From Polytrichum commune (taxonomy: Eukaryota; Streptophyta; Polytrichopsida; Polytrichales; Polytrichaceae), in the NCBI GenBank assembly GCA_950295325.1, contig OX485805.1, forward strand, positions 47,080,758-47,144,757: 64,000 nucleotides of DNA. The letters run 5' to 3'. How positions within the stretch are numbered: the first letter of the stretch is position 1; every line of letters begins with the position of its first letter. The notes under the pieces are model-generated. The model searched no databases. It was not told the origin of the DNA and worked only from the letters and a program-made list of their open reading frames with translations. Shown piece by piece: positions 47,649 through 58,817 of the stretch. A program made the translations under genes and the position numbers.

Positions 47649-50600
47649 TTACGTTTTCCAGCCATGGGTGCGAGCGGCTCGCAAGAAAGCCTCGCGTGCT
47701 TCATGCTCCTGGTAGTCACGCCCGTGAATGGAATTCTTGATGTCGATCCGGCCTTGTCCTTCAACGAAGGCCATCACGACTTGCACCAACAAACTTTCGA
47801 AGGAGCATGCGGGGCTCCACCCACTCGCGGTGAGAAGCTCCATACAAATGCTTCCGCCAATTGTGACGTGGCCAGAATGCATGATGAATCTTGGGGACAA
47901 CACACGCACAAACGGCGGCTCAAATGGGTAAGTTGGCGGGAATTTCACCTCGAGGATGATGTGGACGTCATCTTGCGTATTGCGCATCCTTTTAAGGTCA
48001 GTCAAATCCTTGTGAAGTGGTGGGCTTTGTTTGAACAAATATGGGTGCAATGAAACCCGCCACGTAGAAATTTCCAATTCGTTGATGTCAATGATGATGC
48101 CAGAGAGCACGGGTGCGTTCTCGCTCAACTGGATGAAGGTCGAGATTGAAGGCAACTTGTCCTTTGCCTTCGTAAGAGCATTGAAGTCCTTCATCACTGC
48201 TCTCATTGAGACGCTTTCCCCCTCGATCCGCTTTCCGCCTTTTAGTTGCTGGGGTTGTGGATAGAGTGGTCGCATTTCATGTAATTCGGCCTTCCTCTTC
48301 AATGTTGCTGGTGAAATTGTTGTCGTCGTTTTTTCATTGTGGCGATTCTTCTCAGCAATTGCTCGTAGGACTTCATAGCGGGCCGACATGCGGGACTGCT
48401 TTTGCTCTTGTTGTGACTTTTCGTAGTTGTCTCGAAGCTGCTGGTAGTGGCCCAAGAGGTTGAGTTTGTTTCCAAGAACGCAGCCTTCGATGTTGTGGTC
48501 ACTGCGCATGAAGCTATTAAGTGATGGCCGGAACACCAAGAGGTACCGAATTGCGACGTCGCGCTCGTGCTCTTTTGGGACGACGATGATATTGCGTGAC
48601 GAGTGATCAGCTGCATTGTGCCGTGTGCACCCATTCACAATCTCGCAAATTGCAATTACTTGAAAGCCATCCTTGAGGCACCCTTTATCCCATGACAATG
48701 CCACTGCCGTCTTTGCATATTGGAACGACGTCGAAATGTTGCCGCTAAAATAGATGCCCTCGCCATACGCCGCTCCCGTCGACATGTACGTTGTGTTGCT
48801 CATGCTACGGAGGCCGTTCCGGAGGATCGAATACCAGTTTTCGGCAGCACTTCCGTGGAAAGCAAAAAAAGAGCCGCCAGCTTGCATACGGCGCATTGTG
48901 AAATGCGCCTCACGTTCGGGCGAGTCATGGAGCATCACGAGTTGGAAAATGGTGTTCTCATGATCGAGAACATGCTCTTCCGGGCCAAGTAATCGAAGGG
49001 AGAGACGATTACTTGTAAGGACAAAGCGCATCACATCGTAGGCCAGTCCACGCTCCTTCCTCCATTCCTGCAACAATCAATCCACAAAAATTATGAGAAA
49101 TTATCAGTATTACGACATTTTGTAGAGGTCTAGCAAAAACTAGAGGAGGCAACGAAATCCAGATTGAATATCCAACCTTCCTTGATTTAGTTATGATCAT
49201 CAAAAGTGCACGTGTGTTGGATTCTCAACATGAGTACCTAGGTTCCCCCCAATTCATCCCGAATGGTTTCTTTATTAAAACTCATTTAGGTTAAACTTGA
49301 TGTGAGTTGCAATCCAAAATTCCAGCTTGGTTGGACCACATAGAATTTGGTATTACCAACCACATAGTACAAACTTTTAAGTATACCATAACTATGGCCG
49401 CTCAGAAAGTGTGAATCAGAAGTGCAATCTCTGACACTGTTCTGTCACCAAATCTAGCTTTCAAAAGTGTTCTGATAATCTGACACTCTAGATGTAGCAA
49501 TTTCGAACACAAGGTTCAGTACTCGAATAGAGTACATTGTCTTTTAAGTTTGGCCCTTTGTAACTACAAATGCTATTTTTGAAAATACTCAAACTCCCTC
49601 AAGCTTAGGTAGGCCTTTCTCAGAAAGACAACATTCTAAGTAAAGAGTTAGTCGGAGTGAAGAACATTGAGGGCCAGAGAACTAGTATGTGCTTGCAACA
49701 AAGAAGGGTTAACATTCACTGATAAGATTCTTCAATAGGGCTAGGTTTGTTCTCTTGGTCTATAAACGAATGTTCTAAGTTATCAGAATGTACTTATACG
49801 AACTCACAGTGCTGGAGCTTCACACAAACAGAATTCATTATCAATCTAATGATCCTATCAATTTCCAACACTTGTACTTTTTTCTGTTACAACCTCCATC
49901 ATGAGGTCGTCATCGTAGCAGTTGCCTAGGCTGTGAAAATAGAAAGAGAGCGAAGTGGCATTGCTGAAGAATGTTCTAAGTTAAGCTATCAGAATGTACC
50001 CGTACGAACTTACTATGCTGCAGCTTCACAGTAACTAAATGCAGGGCGAGTGGAGGAGTTTCAGCATGAATCTAATGATCCTACCACTCTTGAGCTCTTT
50101 CTGCTTGCTTCTGTTACACCATCATCCAAGAAAACTGTAACACAGGCATTGCTGAAGAATGTTACAAGAATGTCATCAGAATGTACGTGAACAACTCACC
50201 TCGACCGATTTCGGTTTCGGTTCGTGGCGCCTCTGGTGCGGCAGAGGGCCTGCATGTTGCGAAGGTTGGATGGGATTTCCATGAGGAGCGTCCAGAGCTC
50301 CCAGGTAACTCGACACATACCAAGCTCGCATCAAAACCCTCTTCAAAGCCTTCTCCGTCGGACATGGTTGGAGAGTTCCAATCGGAGGAATGCTGGTTAA
50401 CACTGCACGCAGCAGCTGAATGTTCTTGTTCTCCGGATTCGCCATTGAGGTAGCTCGATCACGATGCTGCCCAGCAGCACTGCTGAACCAGCCACTGCGT
50501 CCGCGCACACAGTCCTTGATCAACAAGAAGGCAGGGAACGGCTCAAACACGTCCCGGGCCGAGAAAATTGCCACATTCGCGAGCGACAGCTCCAAATCCA

Positions 50601-52233
50601 CGAGCTCGGGCGAAAGTTTCACTTCTTGGAGGACCGTGGCACCTAACCCGAGCTCTTCGAATCTGTAGAGACACAAATCGCGGTCACATGTGCGCATCCG
50701 TGTGACGCAAGATTGTAGCGGTTGCCAGCAAATGAGGCACCAATTCGGGAGGAGTCGCAGTTGGTGCGAGATGAACCTTGCTAACCCTAGGATGGGATTT
50801 GGTTCTTTTATGTACAAATGTAGGGTTTCGAGCTGCAATGGCGAGGAGGATGATGACGACAATGATTCCCTCCGCCTCCTGCTGCTGCTTGTTATCGTCG
50901 ACTCTCGTGACAGGTTCAGTGCCTGGAAAAACCTCACCGTCAGCTCCGGGAAGAGAATTTCCAACCCGTAGCTCCTGTGGTCTTGTCCCCTCGCTCTCTC
51001 CGCTTCTTTGTCGAGGAAAACGTCGATGTCATCGGGTCCGGTTTCCGTCGGCGTTGCCGTTTGCGTTGCGGCGATGGCAATGACGTCCGCCCTGTGCGGT
51101 TGCGTCGCCTGGATTTGCTCATAATCGATCGGCTTATGCGGCCGGAAAATCGACTCGCACCAAATGGCTTTGTCGAATGAGAGATGGAGGGTGACGGGAT
51201 CGTCGAGGGAAAGATTAAGGCCCGCGGCGATGTGGTCACCGAGTATTCCCGCGAGCTCGAATTGCAACTGAATCTTTAAACTCGTGGGGTTAGAAATCAC
51301 GCGACACCACATGAGGGGGTTATCTTCTTGCCCTCTGAAAGCTGTCTGCGCTTCCTCGCACTCTTTTCTCGCCGTCTCCGCTAGCGCGTGTAAAAACCCG
51401 CGAGCCCGGCTCTCGACTTCCGTGTTGCTGCTGGTCATCGCCGTCTCGCCCATGGCGATGTCGTAGCCCGATGTGGTGTAGTCGGCGTCGTCGTCGTCAT
51501 TGTGGTGGTCGAATTCATCGTCATCTTCTTCGGAGGCCATGGATTCGCTCCCACCACTGTCGTCGTCCGACTCGCAACCCTTGTTGCTATGATTCTCGTC
51601 ATCATCACAATTGGCATTCACATCATCACTATTCACGTGTTTCACATGTTGTAATTCCTCATGCTCGTCTTCTCTTTTCCCTTGCCCTAAACTTATCACC
51701 ACTGCCAGCAACAAATCCAGAACCTCGTGCAATGCCTCCTGCGCTACAACGATCCTCTCCAGCTTCTCATTCAATGCTAACATGGACGAGTCCAACCTGC
51801 TGTCCACGGCGCCCGCGGTGACCACCAAGAAAACCTCGTCGGAGTCAGGTGGCGGGGGCGTCGTCGATGATACGGTTGTTGTGAGCAATTGGTATGTGGA
51901 GGGGATGAGGATCTGGAGCTTGGCGCCTTTCACACCCAATTGGAGATGTGTTTCGGTCGACTCAATGAGGTTTACGGAAAGTTCTCGCAGAAGGCTATGT
52001 TTCCCCTTCGCCCAAGCAAGATATTCCGACTTCACCCTTGTAGTAGTCTTCGTTGTTGTCATGGTCACTGCAAGATCACACGCTTCTTCTTTCTCTTCTT
52101 CGATGGCGCCGATGTCCCCCGAGGCTATCCGCCACCTCTTAGCCAAGTCATCGCAAAACGGGATCAGCGAGGCTTCAATTCGCACCCTCACGTACTCAAC
52201 TACAATGTTCCTCACGCAATTGGCAAAGCTCAT
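47649..52233 (-). CDS. PARP/ART domain fused to UBE2Q-like ubiquitin-conjugating domain
   Basis: Two exons, 52233-50200 and 49067-47649, joined in phase 0 (donor GAG|GTGAGT, acceptor TTGCAG|GAA), predict about 1,150 residues. Residues 186-251 form an acidic Asp/Glu linker. A Cys-rich segment at 495-535 (LPNWCLICWQPL...CDRDLCLY) precedes the ART domain at about 735-865, with HGS (His749), GEGIYFS (Tyr784) and RYLLVF (Tyr853). This His-Tyr-Tyr set, without the chain-elongating Glu, matches PARP16-type enzymes, so mono-ADP-ribosylation is predicted. Residues about 963-1128 are a UBE2Q-like E2 fold (YPFEPPFVRV, then GGSICMELLT with predicted active Cys1086), lacking the classical HPN motif as UBE2Q does. 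The same ART-then-UBC order is known from fungal PARP-family proteins. The first 480 residues match no domain I recognise. Expression is not shown by sequence. Confidence 0.88.
49769..50195. repeat. Tandem repeat (~190-200 bp, 3 copies) across the PARP-E2 donor site
   Basis: 'gaatgtt(c/a)...tatcagaatgtac' landmarks at 49,769, 49,969 and 50,158 define a period of 189-200 bp. On the minus strand each copy carries a GTGAGTT- or GTAAGTT-like string. The copy at 50,158 contains the actual 5' splice site at 50,199, so the others may act as extra donors. Confidence 0.75.
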
Positions 52234-52399
52234 AGTACGCCGAGGGTTCTTGCGAGACCTACAAACCTAGCTTCTGCAGACACAGAATGCGGGTACTCTA
52301 ATAAGCATTTCTCGCAATACCTCGAATGCTCGTGGGAAGAGAAAACGATGAATTACAGACAACTTTAACAACCCTTTGATCCCAAACTTAGCAAAGAAA

Positions 52400-52660
52400 A
52401 GAAGGATGCCATGGTCACTGCTTCGCTTACATGGTTCTTCTACTTCGATGGTGTCGATGTACCCCGAGGCTGTCCTCCAGTGATGAGCCAAGTCATCGCA
52501 AACATGGAGCTACCAAGGCTTCGCACCAGCCGCACGTACTCACGCAAAATGTTGCTCACGCAATTGGCAAAGCTTATTATAGTACGCCCAGGGTTCTTGT
52601 GAGAGCCACAAACCTAGCTTCTGCACAGACACAGATTTGGGGTACTCTGATAAGCATTTC
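52400..52660 (-). pseudogene. Decayed duplicate of the PARP-E2 5' end
   Basis: It matches 52,056-52,285 at a spacing of about 343 bp ('acgcaattggcaaagct' at 52,215 and 52,558; 'agccaagtcatcgcaaa' in both). The original segment holds the start codon and roughly the first 60 codons. In the duplicate the start ATG is lost and the frame is broken, so it is non-coding. Confidence 0.75.
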
Positions 52661-52989
52661 TTCCCCTCAAGCATCATCATCGCAGGATTCTGGCAAAGCA
52701 AGCGCACACGATAACCCCAAATCCTCCGAGTGCTCCAAGAGTCCGCGTATTCCTTCTGAACAGACAGGTTCTCCAAAGTCTTAGAAACTTCATCCGTGAC
52801 TGCCATCTTGCGGGAAGAGAGAAAACGTTGAATTATACAGACAAGTCAAGCAACCCTCCGATCGCCAAATTTAGCAAAAAGAAAGGAAGGATGCCATGGT
52901 CACACCGCCCGCTTACATGGTTCTACTTCTACTTCTTCAATGGGGATTGCTCCAAATAGGTTTGCTCCAAAGTCTTAAGAACCTCTTCT

Positions 52990-54400
52990 AGTTCTACTCC
53001 ATACCCATACCACCTTCAATGCTCGTGGAAAGACAAGACAAAACGATGTATTACAGACATGCTAGGAGCCCCCTCCACACACAATTTCTGATAAGTGTTC
53101 TAACAAGCTCCCTCCCTCGATCACAAGAAAGATTCTGGCGAAAAGCGCACACCTTAAGCCAATTCTTGTGCTTCTGGAGAAATCTAAAAAACTCTCGAGT
53201 CCCGCTCCATGCCCATCACCATCCCCAATACGCGCGATGAAATGCAGACAATCCTAGCAGCAGCCCTCCCCAACCCCAAACCTACCGACAGCGTGCAACC
53301 TTAACCCGAATCCTCGTGTTTCGAGACAGGTTTTTCCAAACTCTCAAACTTTTCTCCCCTACTCCATACGCGCCAAATGCAATGCTCCCGGGAAGACAAG
53401 AAGATGAATTACACACAATCCTAGCAGCAGCAGCAGCGACCCTCTAACCGCAAACCTAGCCAAAGCACACACGCTTCCAAGCCGCTTCTCCAGAGACATA
53501 CAGACAGACAGACAAACAGGTTTCTACAAATTCCTCAATGAGGTTCTAGTCCAGCTCCATACCCACCATATCCAATGCGCGCGGGATGAGAAAACGATGA
53601 AATACAGATACTCCTAGTAACAACAACCCTGCGTCCCCAAACCTAGCCCTGCCTGCCTGCATGCATGCCTTCGCTCGCCCAAAAGTCTAAAAACTTCTAG
53701 TCCTATTCCATACCCGCCATGCCCAATGCTCGCGAGAAGACAAGACGATGAACTACAGACGCTCCCAGCATCATCAACTCTCCAGCTCCAAACCGATCCA
53801 AAGCATACACCATTACCCGAATTCACGTGTTTCGAGACAGGTTTCTCCAAAATCTGAATAAAATTTCTAATCCTACTCCATACCCACCATACCCAATGCT
53901 TGCAAGAAGACAAGACGATGAATTAAAGACTATCCTGGCATCATCAACCCTCCAACCGCAAACCTAGCCAAAACACACACCTTGACCCAAATTCCTGTGC
54001 TTCGAGACAGGTTTCTCCAAAAATCTAAAAAACACTTCTAGTCTTACTCCATACCCGCCATATCCATTGCGCGCGGGAAGACAAAAGAAAACAGAAGGTG
54101 AATTGCAGATGCTCCCTGAGACCCAAACCGCGCCCTGCCTCCCTGCCTGCACGTCTTCGCTCGCCCAAAAGTCTGAAAAATTCTAGTCCTATTCCATACC
54201 CGCCATACCCGCTTGCGACAGGACAAGAGGATGAATTGCAGACTATCCTAGTATCATCGACCCTCCAACCCCAAACCTAGCCCAAAAACACACTCTCGGC
54301 TTCAAAGCAGGTTTCTCCACACGCTGTAAAACAATTCTAGTCCAACTGCATACCCGCCATACACAATGCGCGGGGGAAGACAAGACGATGAATTACAGAA
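52990..54400. repeat. Minisatellite array (about 9-10 units of 145-200 bp)
   Basis: The core 'ctccatacccgccatrccca' followed by 'aagacaagacgatgaa(t/c)taca' recurs near 53,005, 53,203, 53,358, 53,550, 53,700, 53,873, 54,042, 54,187 and 54,340. Each unit also carries 'tttcgagacaggttt' and 'caaacctagcc' variants. A related unit sits at 52,310-52,390, inside the presumed PARP-E2 leader, so the array probably grew from leader sequence. Minus-strand frames in single units do not stay open across units. Confidence 0.85.
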
Positions 54401-55031
54401 GATCCTGCGACTCCAACAAGGCATGCCTTCGATGCTTGCGCATGCAGCAACGCAAGCGGAGGACCGCGAACAACAACATGCTTGCCTCTGCGATCCCACC
54501 AAACCGACAAACGCAACCCAGCCGGACGGTGGTATCGACCGACCTATCGATCGATCGATCCATCCCTTAGGTCATGATGTGCGCGATGGGGCGATCGCGG
54601 GCGGAGACGATGCGAGCGAGGCTGAGCTTGAATTGGGCAGCGATGATTTGTTCGATTTTCTTGTAGAGGTAAGTTACAGTGTCTGCAACTTACCTTGATC
54701 ACTTACATTTTTGGTGGCACGTGCGATTGTTGTGCGAAATTGCTGTTGCTGCTTCTGTTTTCTGCGATTAACAAGTAAGGTAAAGTTCAGGCCCAGCCGG
54801 GCGGCAGGCGCGAAGATGGGCGGTAATAACGATGGCCATGGCCCGAAGGTTACAATACCGACTACCGACAGCGCTGACGTGGAGAAGGGAAACGGTGTGG
54901 TGGCGAGATCTCATTGGTGGGGACTGGAGAGGTCGGAAATCCTGAGGCCCCGGGTTTCCATGGCGCCGTTGGATTGGATTCCTGCGATCGGAGGGAGGAG
55001 GTGGTGTTTGCTATCCAATTTTACAACTTGA
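54366..55031 (+). CDS. Hypothetical two-exon small gene
   Basis: A first exon from ATG 54,366 ends with an acidic tail (ELELGSDDLFDFLVE) at a strong donor (GAG|GTAAGT, about 54,669). A following frame starting VKFRPSRAAGAKMGG, opened by an acceptor near 54,780, is in matching phase and runs to a stop at 55,031. The spliced product would be about 185 residues with no domain I recognise. The first codons lie in the last minisatellite unit. It stops 15 bp before the pogo element, which may have displaced or truncated downstream sequence. This could equally be chance. Confidence 0.3.
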
Positions 55032-55047
55032 GCACATTCAATGGTTA

Positions 55048-58000
55048 AGGTAGACGACCTGTTTCCGACCACCTTAAGCAATTCAGCATACTTCCGGTGG
55101 AGTAATGAATAGGCAAAAAAAATTGCAGTGTAGGGAAATAGAATTGAGGAAGGTCACATATTTTTGAACAATTTTTGGGGAAATATTTAATTTACTATGA
55201 ATTTCCGGAGTGAAGATTCTCTCCAACCCATTCTCGCAGTATAGGCTGGCCTATTTCCAAGAACTGAAAAACTACATTCCGATACTGGTGCTACTTCATA
55301 TCAAGAACACATGATAACCATAAACATCAAGTCTTGCTATTGGAACTGAACACCATGCGAACTTTATACTGCGCTAGTAAAAACTACATTACTGTGAACC
55401 AAGCAGCCTGGTTCCGGGAGCTTGAAACCCGGAGGTCGTCATGAGCATTACCTATTCCCGGCCAGCCAGCTCCCCAATCCCGCCCACCCGTGCACCCTGA
55501 CCAAGCCCGCCTGGAGAACCTTTTCTGCATGCTTCCCGCCCAACGGCTACGGCTAGTCGGCAACATCTGTTTTGTGACTTAACTTACTGTTCTCTGCGAG
55601 GAGGGAGCGGCCATGGCTGAGGATGCAAGCTTGCATCTGGATAGGGGAGGGTGAATTGAGGCATGGCACTCAAGTGGGGAAGCATGGCTGATAGTTGAGA
55701 CGACAACGTAGATTGCAGAGGTGCGACAAACTGATGGAACGGGTGATTGAAGACGAACTGACCATGGGAGGGAGATGCATACGTTGCGGGGTGCTCGTTG
55801 AAGAACGAGAACTCCCCTTGTTGCGCCTGCATGTCGACGTTGGGGCTGCTCACTTCCTCTCTGCGGCCACCTCGCGCAGGGTGACTCTCAGTTTGTCGGG
55901 CCTCTGCGCTCTCCGCCGCCGTGGAAACTTGGTCACGCCGCGACTCCCTCCTTCTAGGCACCCTGGCCGCCTTCAACGCGCGTTCACGGGCGAGCAGCGC
56001 TGCGCGCTCCGCTTTCAACCGCGCGGCCTCCTCCCGTTCGAGCGCCTTCGCACGCGCAACCTCCTCACGCTCCTGCACTTTCCTTGCCCGAGCTTCAGCC
56101 AACTCAATTGCGCGGGCTTCCCTTTGTCGCCGTTCTTCTTCGCGTTCCAAGAGTTTCCTCCGTTTCGTTTCTTCCCTCTCATTTTTGTTTCTTTCCTTTG
56201 CTCTGGCCGCTTCTTCCTTTTTCTCTTGCAATTGCTCAACTGCGCTCACGTAAATGTTTGATGTGAGCATGATGGACTTTGTGAAATCCACGACTGGGTC
56301 GATGAATCGTCGTCGTGGGGCTCTTGCTGTGATCGTAGGAAGCGTTAAAAAACGCGTGATGGACTCCGGGGTGCTTACAGTGGGATCGAGCCCTACTACC
56401 TCCCCGGCGATGGCGGGATCAGATGTGTCGGCATCGACAAAAAAATGCGATACGCTCACGTCTGGAACCCGGTCTAGCTCGGCTGCGATGTCCACTCCTC
56501 CGGAACTAGGTAACACCTCTGATCCAGACCCGCCGGAGTCTGCTTGGTCGACGTCTTGCTGGTTGTGTCCCTGGTCGTCATGCTCGTCATTTCGTTGGTC
56601 GTGTCCCTGCTCGTCCTGCTCGTCAATTTGATGTTCGTAGGCTGCACTGGGCCCGAGATGGCTAGACATGGCGTTACTGTTAAAGGGCAAAATGCCGCAA
56701 GAACTGAAACCTTTTTTGATGTTGTGGGGAGTTAATGCCCTCTTCAACGCCAATGATACCCAATGCGCAAGCGTCTGTTTTGTAGCAGGTTGGTTGAGGT
56801 TGCGAGAAGTCCAGAAATCTCTGTACTCCTTGAAGAATGTCTTGAAAGGCTTAAATACGCTCACGTCTAGTGGCTGCATTGCGTGAGATGTATGGCTTGG
56901 TAGAGTTAAGAGGTCAAGTCCGGCGTTGCGTGCTTCATGAACCACCTCCAAACTAATATGACTTGCGTGACCATCGAGTATGAGTAAGTGTCTCTGATAA
57001 GTAGAAATGCCACCCATCTGTTGCACACTTTCTATAAAGTGGGAAATCCAAGCTCTAAAGAGGTAGCTAGTCATCCAAGCTCTCGGTTGCATGGACATAG
57101 TAGCTCCTGGTTCACAATGTTCTATGTAATTTTGACGAAAACGCATGCCTTTGAACACATAAAATGATGGTATCGCTAATCCAGCTGCGTTCATGCAGAC
57201 AAGAACCGAGAGCCATTCTCTCTGATTGGGAACAATCGAGTGGACACGACGAGATCCCCTGCGCGCAATGACAATACCGCCGCCATTTCTTCCCGCTTGC
57301 ACGCCCGTCTCATCACAGTTCCACACACGTTCTGGAGGATACATATGTAAGGTATACAAGTGATTTAAATTGTCATAGAAACTCTGTACATTTTCTTTGC
57401 TTAGTCCATTGGCCCTTGATGCCTCCAGTGCCTGTGACACCCTCAGTGTGAGGTCGGGATGCCGGTGCTTAAACCACCGTAACCAGCCATCCCCCGGTAT
57501 TCCATTCTTGAATGGCGTGACCCTGTCCTTGGTTATTTCGAAGACCTTCATTTTTAGCGCAATGGGACTCAAACCGAGGCCTCTCTCACACATACTGTGT
57601 AGGTACGCAACAATCAGCTCCTCTTCAGCCGGACTGAGCACACCCACAGGACCTCTCTTTCTGGACTTTCTCTCACCATAACACCACTCCCTGAATGTTG
57701 AATACGGAATGCCATTGCACTGGGAGGCTTGTCGCATGCTCATACCTTCGTCATAAGCTGTAAGCGCTCGTGCCATTTGCTCCTCTGTCCATTGTTGATT
57801 TTTTTTTGAACTTTCAGCTCCTCTCCTTGGTGATTGTTGTCGAGGTCTTTGCTCACTACTCTGCTGCGTGTTGGCGTTCACAGGATCCGCCAGGTCGGTG
57901 ATGTCTTCCACAGACTGCGTCGATGCGGCTTGATGCTGTAAGCCGGCTCTCATGCTACGATGACGATGGCTAGACCGTGGGTTCGTGAAAATAGGTACAC

Positions 58001-58817
58001 CCCTCGGAGTGAAACATCGACCCTCTATGGCCCTACTGCGTTGCACCCGGCTCCGGAAGCCCGCGCTCTGCCCGCCCCCCAAGCCCTGTGATGAATTTGG
58101 TCGAGCCCTCCGTGACTGTCTATGGTCATGGACTGCCTGCAACGGTGTGTAGTCGAAGTGGCGCTCTTCTTCCGGAGTCTCCTCGTCACTTTGGCTATTG
58201 TCTCCATCCGACACTCCTAAACCGTCACCAATCTCTCGGTTGGGAGCAAATTCCTCATCGTTCTCCTCATCAGTGGCTAGCATGTGATCATTCTCCTCGT
58301 ACTGGGCGGTGGTAGTGAAACTCTGAGGTGCCATGCTGCTATACTAAAAATTCTGAATAAAGAACCACTCAATGCTATGTGGCTGAGAGTCGAAGCTTCA
58401 ATGTTGTGTGCAAGATGTGGCTTGAGTGCAGGGCGCCCCATTGTCGCTCTTTTATTCACTCGCTACCAAGATGGGGATCTCGTTTTTTTTGCTCAGAAGT
58501 GTCTAGATCACCATCAATTTCGGAAAGTGATATTGTTAATTTTGTTGTGTCATCCTCAACCACTCTCACACCAAATTTTGCACGCCCAAGGTTAGATGAG
58601 CAACCCTGTCGCTGCCCATTCCAGATCATGCACATGATGGTTTCCATTCTCGGCGCCAACCATTTCACATTAACAAGAAACCAACACCCTGTCACCCCGG
58701 AAACATGTTTCCGTCACTGTTCACGAATGAATTCGAAAATAATGCGAGCCTATGGTCGGAAATAGGTCGGCCTATACTGCGTGATTGGGGGCCTGATCAG
58801 AAACAGGTCGTCTACCT
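55048..58817 (-). mobile_element. Complete pogo/Tc1-type DNA transposon (3,770 bp)
   Basis: The terminal inverted repeats at 55,048-55,071 and 58,794-58,817 match at 22 of 24 positions and begin AGGTAGACGACCTGTTTC. TA dinucleotides at 55,046-55,047 and 58,818-58,819 are the target duplication typical of Tc1/mariner/pogo. Subterminal inverted repeats of 24 bp also match (55,235-55,258 and 58,758-58,781, core 'gcagtatagg'). The transposase inside is open throughout. Intact ORF plus near-identical ends indicate a young insertion. Confidence 0.92.
55584..58334 (-). CDS. Pogo/jerky-like transposase (DDE_1, HTH_psq, CENP-B-type HTH)
   Basis: Cut-and-paste transposase, 916 residues, single exon, no internal stop. 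An acidic N-terminal region to about 175 precedes a psq-type helix-turn-helix at about 181-222 (WTEEQMARALTAYDEG...STFREW), then a CENP-B-like DNA-binding segment at about 233-300 (GDGWLRWFKHRHPDL). The catalytic DDE_1 domain spans about 325-560, with predicted metal-binding Asp341 (WNCDETGV), Asp454 (LILDGHASH) and Asp490 (MQPLDVSVF). A long charged coiled coil lies at about 690-800, followed by a Pro-rich tail. It lies within its own inverted repeats. Sibling domesticated proteins exist in this family, but here the flanking ends argue for a transposon gene. Confidence 0.93.
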   Translation of the reverse strand: MAPQSFTTTAQYEENDHMLATDEENDEEFAPNREIGDGLGVSDGDNSQSDEETPEEERHFDYTPLQAVHDHRQSRRARPNSSQGLGGGQSAGFRSRVQRSRAIEGRCFTPRGVPIFTNPRSSHRHRSMRAGLQHQAASTQSVEDITDLADPVNANTQQSSEQRPRQQSPRRGAESSKKNQQWTEEQMARALTAYDEGMSMRQASQCNGIPYSTFREWCYGERKSRKRGPVGVLSPAEEELIVAYLHSMCERGLGLSPIALKMKVFEITKDRVTPFKNGIPGDGWLRWFKHRHPDLTLRVSQALEASRANGLSKENVQSFYDNLNHLYTLHMYPPERVWNCDETGVQAGRNGGGIVIARRGSRRVHSIVPNQREWLSVLVCMNAAGLAIPSFYVFKGMRFRQNYIEHCEPGATMSMQPRAWMTSYLFRAWISHFIESVQQMGGISTYQRHLLILDGHASHISLEVVHEARNAGLDLLTLPSHTSHAMQPLDVSVFKPFKTFFKEYRDFWTSRNLNQPATKQTLAHWVSLALKRALTPHNIKKGFSSCGILPFNSNAMSSHLGPSAAYEHQIDEQDEQGHDQRNDEHDDQGHNQQDVDQADSGGSGSEVLPSSGGVDIAAELDRVPDVSVSHFFVDADTSDPAIAGEVVGLDPTVSTPESITRFLTLPTITARAPRRRFIDPVVDFTKSIMLTSNIYVSAVEQLQEKKEEAARAKERNKNEREETKRRKLLEREEERRQREARAIELAEARARKVQEREEVARAKALEREEAARLKAERAALLARERALKAARVPRRRESRRDQVSTAAESAEARQTESHPARGGRREEVSSPNVDMQAQQGEFSFFNEHPATYASPSHGQFVFNHPFHQFVAPLQSTLSSQLSAMLPHLSAMPQFTLPYPDASLHPQPWPLPPRREQ

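Follow-up and report, generated by a model that had tools for sequence, protein, structure and literature searches.

Proteins in which an ADP-ribosyltransferase (ART) domain of the PARP family is joined to a ubiquitin-conjugating (E2) domain have been on record for years. Perina and others (PMC4245714) list PARP6/8-type domains combined with a ubiquitin-conjugating domain, there called UBCc, in Ascomycota, Basidiomycota, the moss Physcomitrella patens and the green alga Chlamydomonas reinhardtii, and describe a motif upstream of the PARP domain, CX2CX9-19CX4C, which marks PARP6/8 homologues in all eukaryotic supergroups. A survey of 2010 (PMC2964712) assigns a C-terminal UBCc to fungal PARPs of clade 6A, places clade 6 proteins in Physcomitrella as well, and reports green-algal clade 6B proteins without any other known domain; the architecture is fungal only in its account, which conflicts with PMC4245714 over green algae. 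According to the same survey, functional characterisation of a clade 6 PARP was still lacking at that time, and no functional study of the PARP6/8-UBCc architecture surfaced in our literature searches. Here we go through a gene of this kind from another moss, Polytrichum commune, which lies on the minus strand at positions 47649-52233 of a stretch of 64,000 nucleotides (contig OX485805.1, positions 47,080,758 to 47,144,757; hereafter the window, whose numbering is used for the gene). An earlier note, made from the sequence of this stretch, gave ART-UBC fusions as described in fungi; this stands for fungi, but moss and green alga have to be added (PMC4245714). Because the genome is that of a moss and the fusion has already been reported in a moss, its occurrence here is expected, and the gene is a further member of an architecture that is in print.

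What is possibly new is the identification of the E2 as UBE2Q-type. In the available text of PMC4245714 and PMC2964712 the domain does not bear that name, and in a literature search combining UBE2Q with plant terms UBE2Q occurs in none of the 20 papers listed, which is no proof of absence in print. A survey of 2024 (PMC11354881) describes UBE2Q domains as Metazoa-specific; those of Fungi and Protista score lower in it, and the fungal ones are found mainly in Asco- and Basidiomycota, where the domains likely emerged. The UBE2Q-type E2 of a moss, identified by the alignments below, argues against so recent an origin. A phylogenomic study of plant PARPs from 2025 follows three subfamilies, PARP1-3; by a term search it has no mention of PARP6, PARP16 or ubiquitin.

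The ART core, a linker and the E2 follow one another in a single open frame, exon 2 (47649-49067; residues 679-1150, that is 472 residues, and a stop codon), and the fusion is thus independent of the intron predicted upstream. In this exon the Pfam profiles PARP (2e-12, residues 715-800) and UQ_con (2e-9, residues 1050-1113) both exceed their cut-offs, while the profile of the E2-related RWD domain stays just under its own (2e-4). When exon 2 was compared with sequences of solved structures, 256 of them matched at E <= 1; among the best 60, the first are human UBE2Q1 (2qgx, 1.4e-19) and UBE2Q2 (1zuo, 3.2e-19), after which come PARP16 (4f0d, 6.4e-7), the closest ART, and the next E2, E2-25K/UBE2K (1.5e-6). 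The E2 piece alone gives the same two proteins, UBE2Q1 at 1.9e-20 and UBE2Q2 at 5.4e-20. These results bear out what the earlier note had claimed, namely that an ART and a UBE2Q-like E2 are encoded by one gene on a plant nuclear chromosome.

The E2 domain occupies 47652-48095 (residues 1003-1150, of which 1011-1132 are aligned), and over the aligned stretches its core is 41% identical to UBE2Q1 and to UBE2Q2 alike. Their common block, GG-x-[IL]-CMELLT, reads GGSICMELLT in the moss protein and GGAICMELLT in UBE2Q1, and Cys1086 (codon 47844-47846) stands opposite the catalytic Cys351. The HPN motif is absent: at the place relative to the cysteine which we take it to hold in canonical E2s, positions 10 to 8 before Cys1086, the moss protein has Ser-Gly-His. 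Human UBE2Q1 and UBE2Q2 also do without HPN, and they transfer ubiquitin to serine, threonine, glycerol and glucose with no need of a ubiquitin ligase (E3) (PMC10971424). Unlike them, the moss E2 is fused to an ART through a linker (48096-48521, residues 861-1002) that matches nothing in Pfam.

The ART core itself lies at 48522-48959 (residues 715-860). Two residues of its His-Tyr-Tyr triad are in place inside the aligned block, His749 in FHGS (codon 48855-48857) and Tyr784 in GIYFS (48750-48752). The third would be Tyr853 in RYLLVF (48543-48545), which is assigned by motif, beyond all alignments; human PARP16 has KYLLVYS in the corresponding block. With a spliced stretch of 320 residues around the ART as query, 44 solved sequences matched, PARP16 first at 1.6e-6 and then PARP2 at 4.2e-4. 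A relation of the ART to RNA 2'-phosphotransferases was suggested by two weak profile matches (0.016 and 0.17), which are under the cut-off and were set aside.

Which class of PARP does this ART belong to? The earlier note called it PARP16-like, and PARP16, itself a clade 6 ART, is the nearest solved structure as mentioned above. PARP16, however, has no E2 and ends in a C-terminal membrane helix (PMC10450202), while no such helix is seen in the moss protein: the highest 19-residue hydropathy past residue 850 is 1.37, within the E2. The maximum of the whole protein, 1.72, is reached in the N-terminal part, at residue 161-162, in a segment that includes charged residues. Upstream of the ART there is instead a cysteine-rich motif, CX2CX13CX4C (50671-50739, residues 499-521), which fits the PARP6/8 pattern; when exon 1 was shuffled 20,000 times, such a motif arose 28 times. 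Elsewhere in the genome (C3:23680300-23682300, positions 874-1473 of the plus strand) there is a separate PARP16-like frame, which matches PARP16 at 7.3e-10 and in which the ART is followed by a stretch that looks hydrophobic by eye, KAFIVLYIALLAGVGLL. Since the PARP6/8 motif is there, the tail helix is missing and a PARP16-like frame exists apart from this gene, the PARP16 label has to be withdrawn, and the ART is best called PARP6/8-type, within clade 6, an assignment made by motif, tail and the separate frame.

Several described proteins come close to the moss one. The Physcomitrella and Chlamydomonas proteins, which we liken by their published description, share the PARP6/8-type ART, the upstream cysteine motif and the ubiquitin-conjugating domain, and Physcomitrella is also a moss. 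Fungal clade 6A PARPs have in common with the moss protein a long N terminus, a PARP domain and a C-terminal UBCc with an active cysteine; the RWD-like N-terminal FPE domain is theirs (PMC2964712). Pfam reported no FPE match in exon 1, with which no FPE sequences themselves were compared. Human PARP6 and PARP8, which according to a re-annotation of 2023 (PMC10450202) have a C4 zinc finger, a split E2-related RWD and a helical ART extension, resemble the moss protein in the clade 6 ART, the upstream motif of C4 zinc-finger type, a disordered insertion and the want of a C-terminal membrane helix, but differ in their split RWD and in having no catalytic E2.

The N-terminal part of the protein comes from exon 1 (50200-52233; 678 codons, residues 1-678), which contains an N-terminal region, an acidic stretch (51454-51678, residues 186-260, 39% Asp/Glu) that is probably disordered, as judged from its composition, the cysteine-rich motif and a possible helical ART extension. 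Its splice to exon 2 is predicted from splice signals and base composition: the donor is GTCGAG|GTGAGT, the intron (49068-50199, 1,132 bases) has the form GT...CAG in phase 0, and the GC content at third codon positions (GC3) drops from 0.637 (exon 1) and 0.594 (exon 2) to 0.385 in the intron. The predicted spliced product is 1,150 residues long. Frames of 678 and 472 codons have chances of about 1.6e-13 and 2.6e-10, respectively, when calculated with the base composition of each exon and with bases treated as independent. The exon coordinates, phase and splice signals thus agree with the two-exon gene and the 1,150-residue protein of the earlier note, and the long intact frames with coding-type GC3 agree with its view that the gene is not decayed. 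It also proposed RNA reads across 49,067/50,200, but as this junction lies between exon 1 and the ART-E2 exon, such reads would probe exon 1 and not the fusion. Within the intron there is a short repeated sequence (49768-49837, 49969-50043 and 50145-50186), each copy of which is at or beside a donor-like GT[AG]AG site (49807, 50013 and 50199); splicing at the two inner sites would lead into a stop at 50176-50178.

What may such a protein do in a moss cell? We give about an even chance to the reading that this single-copy gene encodes a bifunctional protein, in which a PARP6/8-type (clade 6) mono-ART is coupled to a C-terminal UBE2Q-type E2. The N-terminal region and the cysteine-rich motif would select a target, and the ART, by means of His749, Tyr784 and Tyr853, would attach one ADP-ribose to this target or to its own chain; mono-ART activity has been reported for human PARP6 and PARP16 (PMC6479469). 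The ubiquitin-activating enzyme (E1) would charge the E2 on Cys1086, and the E2 would then pass ubiquitin to an acceptor near the ADP-ribosylated site, so that two marks would be coupled by one protein. Reports of this architecture from fungi, a moss and an alga (PMC4245714) are what one would expect of a working pairing.

Several observations weigh against the coupling of two active halves. Three residues are essential in hydroxyl transfer by UBE2Q1, Tyr343, His409 and Trp414 (PMC10971424), whose names we took from the reagent table of that paper, and they correspond to His1078, Ala1143 and Trp1148 in the moss protein, so that two of the three are changed; it is to be noted that His1078 was placed by counting from the cysteine and Ala1143 by ungapped anchoring by hand on Trp1148, itself matched by its C-terminal position. 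The moss protein retains Leu354 and Glu367 of UBE2Q1, but has Cys for Tyr364 and Val for Met371, two residues of the closed-conformation set. The activity of UBE2Q1 is therefore not simply transferable to the moss E2, which may act differently from UBE2Q1, or poorly; it may transfer ubiquitin to lysine in the ordinary way, work with an E3 or have a hydroxyl-transfer site of different build. The earlier note described both active sites as intact in appearance, which is right for the core residues, Tyr853 by motif, but not for these hydroxyl-transfer residues. On the ART side, the match to ARTD15_N, the helical extension of clade 6 ARTs, is sub-cut-off (50362-50445, residues 597-624, Pfam E = 0.054) and is absent from the results for the spliced piece of 320 residues, and exon 1 alone matches no solved structure up to E = 10; nor does it match NCBIfam up to E = 1. 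An AlphaFold2 single-sequence model of exon 2 was unusable (mean predicted local distance difference test score, pLDDT, 31.9; predicted template modelling score, pTM, 0.19), and gives no structural support.

The partial loss of UBE2Q determinants leads to a second reading, that one of the halves is not enzymatic: either the E2 would serve the ART by binding ubiquitin or as a scaffold, or the ART would serve the E2 by binding nicotinamide adenine dinucleotide (NAD+) or the target. The non-catalytic E2-related RWD domains that are predicted in human PARP6 and PARP8 (PMC10450202) speak for it. However, Cys1086, His749 and Tyr784 are all kept in well-aligned blocks, where they would be needless if catalysis were lost, and for this we regard the second reading as unlikely.

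A more elaborate possibility is that the two halves act on one and the same molecule, the E2 ubiquitylating a hydroxyl of the ADP-ribose which the ART has just added, with or without a Deltex-type ligase. In its favour, UBE2Q1 and UBE2Q2 transfer ubiquitin to hydroxyls without an E3 (PMC10971424), Deltex ligases ubiquitylate the 3' hydroxyl of ADP-ribose (PMC7615817), and ubiquitin on ADP-ribose occurs in cells (PMC12000418). A catalytic histidine recurs among hydroxyl-ubiquitylating enzymes (PMC7615817), and the moss E2 has His1075, His1078 and His1146 near the catalytic cysteine or the C terminus, but these are placed by sequence and not in the active site of any structure. Two of the three residues that UBE2Q1 needs for the reaction are changed, and a term search of the main text of the UBE2Q1 paper (PMC10971424) returned ADP-ribose 0 times. 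We therefore hold a writer of such a hybrid mark for quite improbable, even though the same genome encodes a Deltex-like frame.

This frame came from a genome search with the Deltex C-terminal domain (DTC), in which one of three candidates matched (3.2e-18). The frame (C1:73762600-73765600, 1323-2072 on the minus strand) carries WWE (1.2e-7), RING (1.6e-12) and the start of DTC up to position 39 (0.0023, sub-cut-off in this frame by itself); its DTC appears to be split over two exons, with a further DTC exon alongside. An absence of Deltex, from which one might have concluded that the fusion takes its place, is ruled out by this match. Macro domains, possible erasers, gave 5 matches among 12 candidates in the genome. 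Candidate parts for a combined ADP-ribose-ubiquitin pathway are thus present, by domain content, and no linkage among them is implied.

Has the gene descended within the plant lineage, or was it transferred laterally from a fungus into mosses? The earlier note had left both ways open. The same architecture is described in fungi (PMC2964712 and PMC4245714), the algal link is disputed between these two papers, and another ADP-ribose-related bryophyte gene has been reported to be fungal in origin (PMC7181705). The GC3 of the gene, about 0.6, is also higher than that of the six frames of the window with Pfam matches (0.37-0.54) and that of the 15 longest frames at eight other loci (0.32-0.53, not all of which are coding). 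However, the surrounding region (50.5-58 kb) is GC-rich as well, so the GC3 may be regional, and the fusion has been reported in a green alga too (PMC4245714). The published spread of the fusion leans towards an ancient origin, and lateral transfer seems to us improbable to a high degree. The gene lies in a contig of 59 Mb, and its 64-kb window includes kinesin, malectin and transporter frames, so that the contig at least is no contaminating one; of the eight other window frames scanned, six match Pfam (kinesin, malectin, transporter, transposase), and fungal contamination is ruled out. Searches of viral and prokaryotic contig collections with two queries returned 4, 15, 78 and 105 pattern matches, none of which was confirmed as a relative, a result that is uninformative on eukaryotes.

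Finally, the N terminus may be wrong, exons 1 and 2 being separate genes and the ART-E2 protein beginning within exon 2 or with another upstream exon. The splice is a predicted one, the PARP16 alignment of the 320-residue stretch stops short of exon 1 and the helical-extension match is weak; the donor GTGAGT and the acceptor CAG are nevertheless consensus sites in matching phase, the cysteine motif that precedes the ART in PARP6/8 proteins sits in exon 1, and the ART-E2 fusion itself would be unaffected. This we consider very improbable.

As to copy number, three of the four candidate places that the exon 2 query gave in the genome at E <= 0.01 were matched: the gene itself, the PARP16-like ART (24 bits) and a generic E2 (22 bits). 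No second UBE2Q-like exon was found genome-wide at this threshold, in an exon-by-exon search that may miss weak exons. The PARP profile gave 13 matches among 14 candidates, at six places including the fusion gene; it overlooks the PARP16-like frame and hence misses members. UQ_con gave 45 matches among 68 candidates. Exon 1 matched at all three of its candidate places, namely itself and two adjoining fragments at 1.22 Mb of C3 (C3:1222300-1224300, 773-1064), one of 181 bases with 98.9% identity and one of 113 bases with 99.1%. These fragments lie next to short GC-rich repeats, apparent ribosomal DNA and an NB-ARC-like frame (the last two named by eye), and are an apparent recent captured or filler insertion. 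A processed copy that would reveal an intron is ruled out for them: the gap of 281 bases is not divisible by three and has, by eye, no GT-AG bounds. Upstream of the gene, the region 52057-54407 consists of diverged repeats, one copy of which (52407-52661) is 77% identical to 52057-52312, where exon 1 begins, together with its start region. The gene next to the fusion gene encodes a transposase (55587-58343, minus strand) in a single frame of 919 codons with DDE_1 (9.1e-22) and HTH_psq.

Two further observations in this genome concern other genes. LEAFY-type sequences gave six matches at three loci, near 40.572 Mb and 62.299 Mb of C1 and at C7:8635700-8636400. The loci at 62.299 Mb and on C7 carry RDYVHCYALH and AWCQACY, as the Physcomitrella protein (4bhk) does, and the former scores 218.7 bits to 4bhk versus 171.1 to Arabidopsis. 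The locus at 40.572 Mb has RHYVHCYALH and AWRQACY as Arabidopsis, yet scores 202.4 bits to 4bhk versus 182.3 to Arabidopsis; with a residue typing of LEAFY classes that we assume to hold, it is possibly a moss paralogue with DNA contacts of flowering-plant type. Its Arabidopsis-like residues pointed at first to a liverwort or a vascular plant, a reading given up in favour of a moss in view of the two Physcomitrella-like loci. In the plastid contig C8 (146,561 bases) the sequence recurs after about 126,254 bases, as seen from two copies of the trnP-trnL pair, which fits a moss, and the stretch from ndhF into ndhA (genes identified by eye) is present twice, 126,254 bases apart. A transporter taken as a marker of liverwort plastids gave 0 matches among 2 candidates, in a plastid contig part of which reads N.

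The PARP6/8-UBCc architecture was listed in surveys of 2010 and 2014, before hydroxyl-ubiquitylating UBE2Q enzymes and ubiquitylated ADP-ribose became known. With these in mind one may imagine, as a long shot, that an ancient PARP6/8-UBE2Q fusion is the one-protein writer of an ADP-ribose-ubiquitin ester in plants, made by an E2 without HPN, with the Deltex-like protein as a helper or a later partner. If this were true, UBE2Q-type E2s would be older than the split of plants and opisthokonts and would have worked first joined to a PARP, contrary to what the text of PMC11354881 describes. The UBE2Q-type identity of the moss E2 bears in any case on the age of the UBE2Q family, and a moss protein with both domains, in a genome with a Deltex-like ligase, allows a direct test of whether the two marks are linked, in a group amenable to genetics.

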